Shown here piece after piece: positions 2,192 through 4,260 of a DNA stretch of 64,000 nucleotides (position 1 is the stretch's first letter; every line of letters begins with the position of its first letter). Under the pieces are notes generated by a model. That model did not search any database, was not told the origin of the DNA, and saw nothing but the letters and a program-made list of their open reading frames with translations. Made by a program: the position numbers and the translations under genes. This DNA is from Rhodobacteraceae bacterium IMCC1335 (lineage in GTDB: Bacteria > Pseudomonadota > Alphaproteobacteria > Rhodobacterales > Rhodobacteraceae), in NCBI GenBank assembly GCA_039640495.1, contig CP046864.1:3273001-3337000 (forward strand), written 5' to 3'.

Positions 2192-2959
2192 TTAAACACC
2201 AATAGGCGGCCGTTTCTTTTTACGCCGCCGCGGCTGCTCTAAACCCGCCACCGGAACTTTAAAGAACATCTCGCTGTCTAAGGATAAAACGGTTCTTTGC
2301 GCGCTTAACTCATTTTCAGCCACAATTGTCTGCAGGTAGATAAATTTGCGAAAACTCATGAAGGCTATCAACATATTTCCCTGCTCGCGCCCCGAGTAAA
2401 TACAAAGCATGAGGTAAAAAACCACGCCCAGAATCCAATGAACGGTCAAGGCCACGAAAAACGCCAAAATACTCGCAAGCGCCGCTTCGGGCATCCGCCG
2501 GTTCAAAAACCAAAAGGGCGGGCAAACCATTGCCAATAGTGACTTGGAACGATCGACCAGTTCTGCGTTTTTTTGCATATCATGGAAAACCATATATTCG
2601 ATCAAACCCGAGCGCGTGGCCGCCCTTAGCATCACAAGATCGTTTTCCGACAGAGGATGTGCGTCAGCATCAACCTCATCGAATTTCGCCCCAAGCGATT
2701 GCGTTACCGAAATATTAAAAGCCGTCTGATCCCGCTTGACCGTCAAGATCCAAGTTTCATCGACATGTGCAGCCGCGTCTTCTTCATCCTCATAGGCAAA
2801 AAGCGCGTTAAACTGTTTTGCTGTCCCCAAAAACGGCGTGCCATCAACGCCTAAGATATAGTCAAATTGTTGCAATCCAATCGTTGGCCCATAGCCATTG
2901 ACAAAACCGCTAATCTGCAAAACCGCGCGTGTCTCTTGTTCCTCAACACTTTCCGCCAT
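2192..2959 (-). CDS. PDZ-like membrane protein, last gene of the fliK-flhB operon
   Basis: 255 residues. The first 110 look PDZ-like: a G-x-G-P-x-x-G-L-Q turn, then D-Y-I-L-G-V-D-G-T-P-F and a strand L-T-V-x-R, the usual order of ligand loop, buried D/V-G turn and final strands. An acidic insert (EDEEDAAAH) sits within it. Two hydrophobic segments follow (about residues 145-195), then a soluble stretch and a strongly basic tail (RRRKKKR). It lies 35 bases downstream of the coiled-coil gene and reads with the flagellar operon. I do not recognise the full protein; a role in flagellar assembly or polar placement is only inferred from the operon. Confidence 0.65.
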   Translation of the reverse strand: MAESVEEQETRAVLQISGFVNGYGPTIGLQQFDYILGVDGTPFLGTAKQFNALFAYEDEEDAAAHVDETWILTVKRDQTAFNISVTQSLGAKFDEVDADAHPLSENDLVMLRAATRSGLIEYMVFHDMQKNAELVDRSKSLLAMVCPPFWFLNRRMPEAALASILAFFVALTVHWILGVVFYLMLCIYSGREQGNMLIAFMSFRKFIYLQTIVAENELSAQRTVLSLDSEMFFKVPVAGLEQPRRRKKKRPPIGV

Positions 2960-2994
2960 CTATACTTACCCGCCTACCCGCTTTTTTTCACTTA

Positions 2995-3828
2995 TTAAGG
3001 AAATTTAATAATATCACCTTCAGGTTTTGGCTTCGCCACAGCCTGCGCCCGTGCCTTGCGCGCCTGGGCCGCTTCTTTTTTGGCCGAACTTAGCTTTTGA
3101 TCAAGTGTTGCCACGCGGGCCGATAATTCAGCATTCACCTCTTGCAGCGCCTGCAGCGCATCGCGTTGCTCTTTCATGCCTGCAGAGGCGTCAGAAATAG
3201 TCTGCAATGCATCGATCACTGAACGCGTGAAATTGCCCATTATCATATTTTGAGCTTTGAATTCTTCATTGGTCATTTCGGCAAATGACAGCGTCAGCTC
3301 TGAGTTTAAGACGGCGTTTTTTTCTTGCTGCTCGGTCAATTGTGCCATCACCGACGGCTCGATCGTATTCATCTTTTCAATCGCAACGCGCACTTCTTCA
3401 GACATCATATCCGATTTCTCGCCAATTTTCACCAAACCCGCGCTGGCCGTTTCAACGACATTGGTTAAATTATTAATCTGATCCAAAGCTGGCGTAAGCT
3501 TTGCAACATCCTCATTCAAGGAATCAACATTTTCGATAAACACGGTCAACAATTCTGTGTTGGTTTGCGACAATAATTTCAATTGTGATGAGGATTGCAG
3601 AAAGATCACGATACACAAAGCCGCCGCGCCAATGCCGGAAACGAATCCTAAAATAACCGCTATGCGGCCCAGCTTTTCAATATTCGCCAGTTTTGCGGTG
3701 GATCGTTTAATCTGCTGTGCAACCTTTGCATATTCCGATGTAACATCCATTGCGGCATCCGCCGCATCCAGAGCAATCTGGATACTTTTTTCTACATCGG
3801 CGGTGTTTGCTGAACGAGTTCCTGCCAT
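2995..3828 (-). CDS. Single-pass membrane protein with a long coiled coil, flagellar operon
   Basis: 277 residues: a soluble N-terminus of about 55 residues, one transmembrane helix (about 56-78, GRIAVILGFVSGIGAAALCI), then a long heptad-rich region and a Lys/Ala-rich tail with repeated QARKARAQA-like sequence. There is no HAMP or signalling tip, so it is not a chemoreceptor. Its ATG overlaps the stop of the preceding small gene (TGATG), indicating translational coupling. R. sphaeroides Fla1 needs a single-pass motor protein called MotF; a similar role here is conceivable but I see no firm sequence match. Confidence 0.65.
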   Translation of the reverse strand: MAGTRSANTADVEKSIQIALDAADAAMDVTSEYAKVAQQIKRSTAKLANIEKLGRIAVILGFVSGIGAAALCIVIFLQSSSQLKLLSQTNTELLTVFIENVDSLNEDVAKLTPALDQINNLTNVVETASAGLVKIGEKSDMMSEEVRVAIEKMNTIEPSVMAQLTEQQEKNAVLNSELTLSFAEMTNEEFKAQNMIMGNFTRSVIDALQTISDASAGMKEQRDALQALQEVNAELSARVATLDQKLSSAKKEAAQARKARAQAVAKPKPEGDIIKFP

Positions 3829-4037
3829 CAGCCCAAGTCCTTTTTTTGTTGTCTCGGCATAGCCTTTACCTGTTTATAAGCACAATTCGTGCCACTTGCT
3901 TGAAATACGGCTTGCGCCGGGATATTGGCAGATTTAAATCCAAAATGCCGGCATCCCCAAGGCTTTTGCGCCTCATGGGTAACAAAGAAGAACACGCAAT
4001 TATGGCAGGTTCTCACGGTGTTTTTAACTGCGCTCAT
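3828..4037 (-). CDS. Small four-cysteine (zinc-ribbon-like) protein in the flagellar operon
   Basis: 69 residues with the pattern C-x2-C-x14-C-x22-C: CHNC near residue 11, then P-W-G-C-R-H-F-G-F-K-S and a final S-G-T-N-C. This F-x-x-T ... P-x-G-C-x-x-F-G-F-K-S signature recurs in short bacterial proteins that, as I recall, are often mislabelled uracil-DNA glycosylase; nothing here supports glycosylase activity, since the protein is far too short and lacks UDG motifs. It overlaps the upstream 78-residue gene by 14 bases and couples to the coiled-coil gene by TGATG. Probably metal-binding; function unknown. Confidence 0.65.
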   Translation of the reverse strand: MSAVKNTVRTCHNCVFFFVTHEAQKPWGCRHFGFKSANIPAQAVFQASGTNCAYKQVKAMPRQQKKDLG

Positions 4038-4260
4038 TCAGACTTTCTTTCAACTTGAACAAGGCGTTTTGAATTACATACCGGATACAGGCTGCAAAAC
4101 TAAAAAACGCGCAGATAAACATACCCGCAGCCGACCAAAACTGAGCCGCCGCGAAATATTCAAACCCATATGACAACCACACAAAGCCAACGCCGAAAAA
4201 GCAAACAGAACTGATTGCTTCACCCATGCTAAGCGATTTTTTATACGCTAATCTAACCAT
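4024..4260 (-). CDS. Small membrane protein after flhB, unknown function
   Basis: 78 residues with two hydrophobic segments (about 15-32 and 38-60) and a charged C-terminal tail. The start overlaps the end of flhB by 8 bases and its end overlaps the next gene by 14 bases, so it is almost certainly cotranslated with the flagellar export genes. I do not recognise the family. Tight coupling to flhB suggests a role near the export gate or basal body, which is inference. Confidence 0.6.
   Translation of the reverse strand: MVRLAYKKSLSMGEAISSVCFFGVGFVWLSYGFEYFAAAQFWSAAGMFICAFFSFAACIRYVIQNALFKLKESLNERS

Follow-up and report, generated by a model that had tools for sequence, protein, structure and literature searches.

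An accessory motor module with a distant MotF relative is proposed for the four genes behind flhB in Rhodobacteraceae bacterium IMCC1335

Which task do the four genes that follow flhB serve in a flagellar gene cluster of Rhodobacteraceae bacterium IMCC1335? They lie in a 64,000-nucleotide stretch of its genome (CP046864.1, positions 3,273,001 to 3,337,000), which as a whole is called the window below and from whose first base all coordinates are counted. On the minus strand, flhB (4253-5398), encoding the export-gate switch protein, is directly followed by gene A (4024-4260; 78 amino acids), gene B (3828-4037; 69 amino acids), gene C (2995-3828; 277 amino acids) and gene D (2192-2959; 255 amino acids), which form the end of a run starting at fliK. 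As the initial annotation described, flhB and A overlap by 8 bases (4253-4260), A and B overlap by 14 bases (4024-4037), and B and C meet in a TGATG at 3826-3830; a gap of 35 bases separates C from D. The tight coupling to the export-gate genes that it deduced is supported by these overlaps and by conserved gene order. The likely answer, in our view, is that the block would be an accessory motor module of a sigma-54-controlled, fla3-like flagellum, produced alongside the last export-gate genes and with C as its MotF.

The evidence carrying this answer starts with gene C, a single-pass coiled-coil protein that, to judge by its sequence, is distantly related to MotF, which activates stators in the Fla1 flagellum of Cereibacter sphaeroides. 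Comparisons with this species rest on genome G077, which is presumably C. sphaeroides 2.4.1. The gene behind flhB in G077 encodes a protein of 239 amino acids and 24.8 kDa with a hydrophobic stretch at residues 54-74; window C has a single span predicted from hydropathy at residues 53-81, best at 58-76. Aligned with hhalign, window-side and fla3-side C profiles matched with a probability of 99.5 (E 8.1e-23) over window residues 1-127, and a C profile built without G077 scored the full G077 protein at 49 bits (E 9.5e-14). The truncated G077 protein, read from its second ATG, reached 33.2 bits, compared with a best of 2.1 among 200 shuffles. All 98 C members have one predicted membrane span, and 95 of them end in [IVFY]x[FY]P, the three others being taken as cut. 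Lysine plus arginine averaged 3.55 before the span versus 1.03 after it (33 rows), which fits the predicted cytoplasmic position of the N-terminus. The comparison (one cut row was left out of the C alignment) shows which parts of MotF are conserved: the cytoplasmic helix (residues 13-35), the stretch that follows the span and the four residues at the C-terminus. Most of the coiled coil is free to vary.

PMC7277832 describes C. sphaeroides Fla1 MotF as a 24 kDa protein that crosses the membrane at residues 54-74 and has a large domain-sized part in the periplasm; mutants lacking it show a rotation defect, which MotB plug changes suppress, and FlgT is required for its recruitment. The initial annotation, which found that none of the four genes fits a standard flagellar component, was thus too strong for C, related as it is to a published motor component. 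In Pfam, C weakly matched nine families, most of them eukaryotic coiled coils, and in NCBIfam it had weak hits to six models, the best being NF051442 (NheB; E 2.2e-4) with 20.5 bits where the cut-off is 500; all of these were judged coiled-coil artefacts. None of the window A to D proteins reached a curated cut-off in Pfam or NCBIfam.

Searching the C profile over the genome collection gave 79 loci, which are hence selected by C. They come from records named Rhodobacteraceae, SAR116, HIMB59, Rhodospirillaceae and other alphaproteobacteria, many of them uncultured. The order flhB-A-B-C-D on one strand was found in 75 of the 79, and the four exceptions (L041, L065, L094, L098) are interrupted by contig ends. 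In a comparison of nine loci, of which eight have A, C and D, the order was kept with identity to window A, C and D going down to about 22-32%. MotF, which a 2024 paper calls Cereibacter-specific (PMC10954123), thus appears to extend to SAR116, HIMB59 and other marine alphaproteobacteria.

An independent test was provided by a sample chosen by FlhB without reference to C: 27 of 394 family genomes have an FlhB scoring at least 259 bits against window FlhB (the next scores 177), and these are said here to have this FlhB type. The C profile matched in 26 of the 27, the exception being G102; in the other 367 family genomes there were 11 matches, all weak and set aside as artefacts, none covering the N-terminal motif. 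In 23 of the 26 genomes with C (exceptions G029, G249 and G367), C lies on the flhB strand and within 1 kb behind that gene; D is present in 25 of the 26 and beside C in 24, and A is directly behind flhB in 25 of the 27 (exceptions G077 and G301). B is at the locus in 15 of the 27 and absent from it in 12. In G394, C is cut at a contig end and a full-length D lies on another contig. The initial annotation had left it to relatives to show whether the genes stay beside flhB, and both samples indicate that the block does.

Other searches delimit this distribution. Single-sequence searches of 61 relatives, the genome itself counted, found D in 6 and C in 7. Over the phylum, the C profile matched 20 of 299 genomes, with a full match solely in the window's own genome; the 19 weak matches are taken as coiled-coil artefacts. 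The D profile matched somewhere in 207 of 385 genomes of the class, 10 of them over both domains (E 2.8e-42 or better); after these top 10, the matches listed cover one domain. The plasmid records yielded C from Octadecabacter arcticus alone, and a search of them with the G029 protein as query yielded none. Separately, a metagenome-assembled genome labelled Gammaproteobacteria carries flhB-A-B-C-D (L102, NZEI01000067.1), possibly by a binning or label error.

The near-constant neighbour of C is D, which combines a PDZ domain (about residues 12-97) with a DUF2628-like membrane hairpin (about 141-227). The PDZ fold is present at the N-terminus, at residues 10-99, the part that the rows of the structural alignment mainly span, and DUF2628 (PF10947) was matched in 32 of 57 D members (best E 4.6e-7). 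Two cut rows were left out of the D sequence alignment. Hydropathy gives a single hydrophobic block at 156-190. The D protein of G077 has 23.7 kDa and so resembles MotF in mass, but its span is at about 128-166. Since D adjoins C, it probably works with MotF. That the PDZ domain binds the C-terminal tail of C was considered and set aside, as the predicted topology puts the two on opposite sides of the membrane. The literature searched, which takes in few subscription journals, gave no description of D and no paper linking DUF2628 or PDZ to MotF, and MotF was absent from its papers on combinations of PDZ, SAR116 and HIMB59.

By homology and position, C and D are most likely a stator-activation module that acts on rotation. 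C would be anchored by one membrane helix near residue 60, with a short cytoplasmic N-terminus and a periplasmic coiled coil. By analogy with C. sphaeroides MotF, it may help to unplug MotB upon stator docking, together with FliL and the FlgT ring; unplugged MotB would allow proton flow, and the motor would turn. D would place its PDZ domain on a membrane hairpin and work with MotF from the cytoplasmic side, with A as a small membrane protein tied to flhB and B as a cysteine-rich accessory. The block thus supplies named candidates for how stators are opened. The accessory envelope complex of the initial annotation survives in so far as an accessory role in the motor is likely; the homology to MotF points to rotation and not to basal-body placement.

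A, for its part, may serve the export gate instead. A is predicted to be a small two-helix membrane protein, with two weak hydrophobic stretches by hydropathy (six rows with long uncertain starts were left out of its alignment). It is present in 77 of the 79 loci, overlapping or abutting flhB in 60 of these 77, and it stays directly behind flhB where C and D are together elsewhere (G029, G249, G367) or where C was not found (G102). Conversely, C and D occur without a recognised A in G077. A link of A to the export gate is suggested by this place behind flhB. It is a serious possibility, and one compatible with the motor module, that A, perhaps with B, acts on FlhB or the export gate and that C and D alone serve the motor. 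Its weak points are that A gave no convincing family match, that it is absent behind flhB in G077 and G301, and that the proximity to flhB may reflect translational coupling alone.

B, in turn, could be a regulator or a metal or redox sensor that rides in the operon, which is possible and rather doubtful. It is soluble, has no membrane span, and shows its four cysteines in the pattern CxxC-x14-C-x18..24-C in all 87 members collected. Zinc-ribbon matches exist but are weak (Zn_ribbon_5 matched 2 of 45 members, with E 0.04 at best, and Zn_ribbon_Nudix matched 1 of 45, with E 0.0085), no family or structure match was significant, and the structure model, folded from 38 of the 45 rows, is poor (predicted local distance difference test, pLDDT, 65.8). 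The absence of B from the locus in 12 of the 27 genomes with this FlhB type also counts against such a role; a genome-wide search of five of these 12 found no B, an empty result that carries no weight by itself in a search run without a positive-control genome. B is perhaps best described as a cysteine-rich accessory, possibly zinc-binding, in part of the family. The source name of the Octadecabacter B protein P0131 ('Uracil-DNA g...') is unsupported and looks like a misannotation. Four clusters that lack B have, in the gap between A and C, an opposite-strand gene of about 190-205 amino acids (L129, 8929-9510; L130, 9062-9679; L131, 9212-9814; L132, 10602-11186), and a similar-looking gene lies near C in L019.

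An alternative for the block as a whole, and one of the two roles suggested in the initial annotation, is that the four proteins form an envelope scaffold which positions or builds the basal body. The tight coupling to fliR and flhB and the near-constant gene order would suit it, and lineage-specific assembly proteins, CP1-4, are known from fla1-type Rhodobacterales clusters (PMC12363192). The same source states, however, that CP1-4 are absent from fla2- and fla3-type clusters, and C is related to a protein whose loss impairs rotation, a defect that MotB plug changes rescue (PMC7277832). We therefore regard an assembly or placement complex as unlikely. More doubtful still is a checkpoint in which A would sit with FlhB, D would be a cytoplasmic PDZ reader and C would reach into the periplasm, so that stators would be unplugged solely beside a complete export gate; the helix 13-35 and the [IVFY]x[FY]P tail of C would be its two docking points. 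That the four are passengers with no flagellar role, kept by chance or hitch-hiking, is very improbable: the literature searched offered nothing on the function of A, B or D, but of the 27 genomes with this FlhB type 26 carry C, versus 11 weak matches in the other 367, order is kept down to about 22-32% identity, and a chance association is excluded because the block is conserved across loci and genomes.

Several observations weigh against the accessory motor module that we prefer. Window C and G077 C share about 16% identity, and their profile alignment is limited to the first 127 of 277 residues. Window D alone gave no Pfam family at E <= 1, and a Foldseek search with the D model gave no PDB match at E <= 0.001 (best 3.2e-3). 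In G029, G249 and G367 the C-D pair is together but away from flhB, with A still behind flhB; G301 combines a weak C (E 6.5e-7) with the lack of a full-length D anywhere in its genome; G102 has A but lacks both C and, genome-wide, a full-length D. Around the C-D genes of G077, no A or B was recognised within 20 kb, so A and B are not needed for every MotF. Finally, the operon context alone fits an assembly role equally well. The separation of C-D from flhB-A in three genomes and the absence of B from 12 of 27 also loosen the initial annotation's view of the four genes as one unit; their common order at most loci stands.

Upstream of flhB the same run holds fliR, fliQ, fliP and fliO (5391-7561, minus strand). 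The first three were assigned with phmmer through the Octadecabacter locus, whose record carries those names, and fliO by position and one weak match. The longer run begins with fliK (9574-11718, minus strand; Flg_hook E 1.7e-9), in front of which lies a sigma-54-like site at 11754-11768 on the minus strand (TGGCACATAAATTGC). A second, strict site at 7589-7603 on the minus strand (TGGCATGATACTTGC) starts one base past the fliN stop, before fliO. Of 71 related loci, 39 had a strict site between the fliN start and the fliP start and 32 had none there, and between the fliI end and the fliL start one was present in 48 of 48 related loci having fliI, fliL and D; other strict sites between fliP and the end of D were seen in four loci. 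Over those loci the strict pattern occurred 109 times on the plus strand versus 55 on the minus strand in 1.3 Mb, so a lone site may be due to chance, and the recurring position is stronger evidence than any lone site. The initial annotation had assigned the block a shared sigma-54 promoter. The fliK site is indeed there; the conserved site between fliN and fliO lies closer to the block and is the nearest candidate promoter for fliO to D. The tail may thus be read from two putative promoters, the nearer one giving fliO-fliP-fliQ-fliR-flhB-A-B-C-D. An Rfam scan of window positions 1-12500 found no family.

Beyond the block, the flagellar cluster has its own rpoN for sigma-54 (582-1964, plus strand), preceded by a strict sigma-54-like site at 545-559 on the plus strand, which suggests self-activation of rpoN. 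Adjoining it is gene E (238-465, minus strand), encoding a 75-amino-acid hydrophobic CxxC protein; in PADLOC it gave only weak '2TM' matches. Gene E was found in 52 of the 79 related loci and may be one more component of this kind of flagellum. To the left of rpoN are motA and motB, and about 16-18 kb to the left the genome also has FlgT-like and FlgP-like genes.

To which flagellar type the cluster belongs was judged by FlhB. Window FlhB is 67% identical to that of G352, 55% to that of Octadecabacter arcticus plasmid pOA238_118, 47% to that of G077 (other sampled genomes being nearer than G077) and 31% to that of a Marinovum algicola DG 898 plasmid, presumed to be a fla2 cluster. Current Rhodobacterales naming uses C. 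sphaeroides 'Fla1' as its fla3 reference. Judged by FlhB, the cluster thus appears nearer to C. sphaeroides Fla1, and so fla3-like, than to Marinovum (fla2), whose type is rejected as the nearest by FlhB identity in this comparison of C. sphaeroides, Octadecabacter and Marinovum; in that nomenclature, fla3-like would be a better label than the fla1-type given earlier. Near 3.69-3.73 Mb the same genome carries another flagellar cluster, whose FlhB is different (G000:C1:3690001-3729999; L020, L022), and examination of 40 kb there did not reveal the A-D block.

Among known systems, the MotF of Sinorhizobium and Agrobacterium shares the name and the theme of stator activity; it is a FliL paralogue according to a reference title in PMC9812332, and is taken as a different protein from this description alone. 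CP1-4 are likewise four lineage-specific proteins within a flagellar cluster, reported as essential and as exclusive to fla1-type Rhodobacterales clusters (PMC12363192), and are set apart from A to D by description alone. With the bacterial proteins RseP, DegP/DegQ and MamP, D has the PDZ fold in common, and no protease domain was matched in D. The closest counterpart is the MotF of C. sphaeroides. It differs in length (239 versus 277 amino acids in window C), in sequence (about 16% identity) and in having no recognised A or B within the 20 kb of G077 that were searched around it. In both, the gene lies behind flhB and next to the flagellar rpoN, and the proteins share a single span near residues 54-78, the N-terminal motif, the [IVFY]x[FY]P tail and a profile match at a probability of 99.5.
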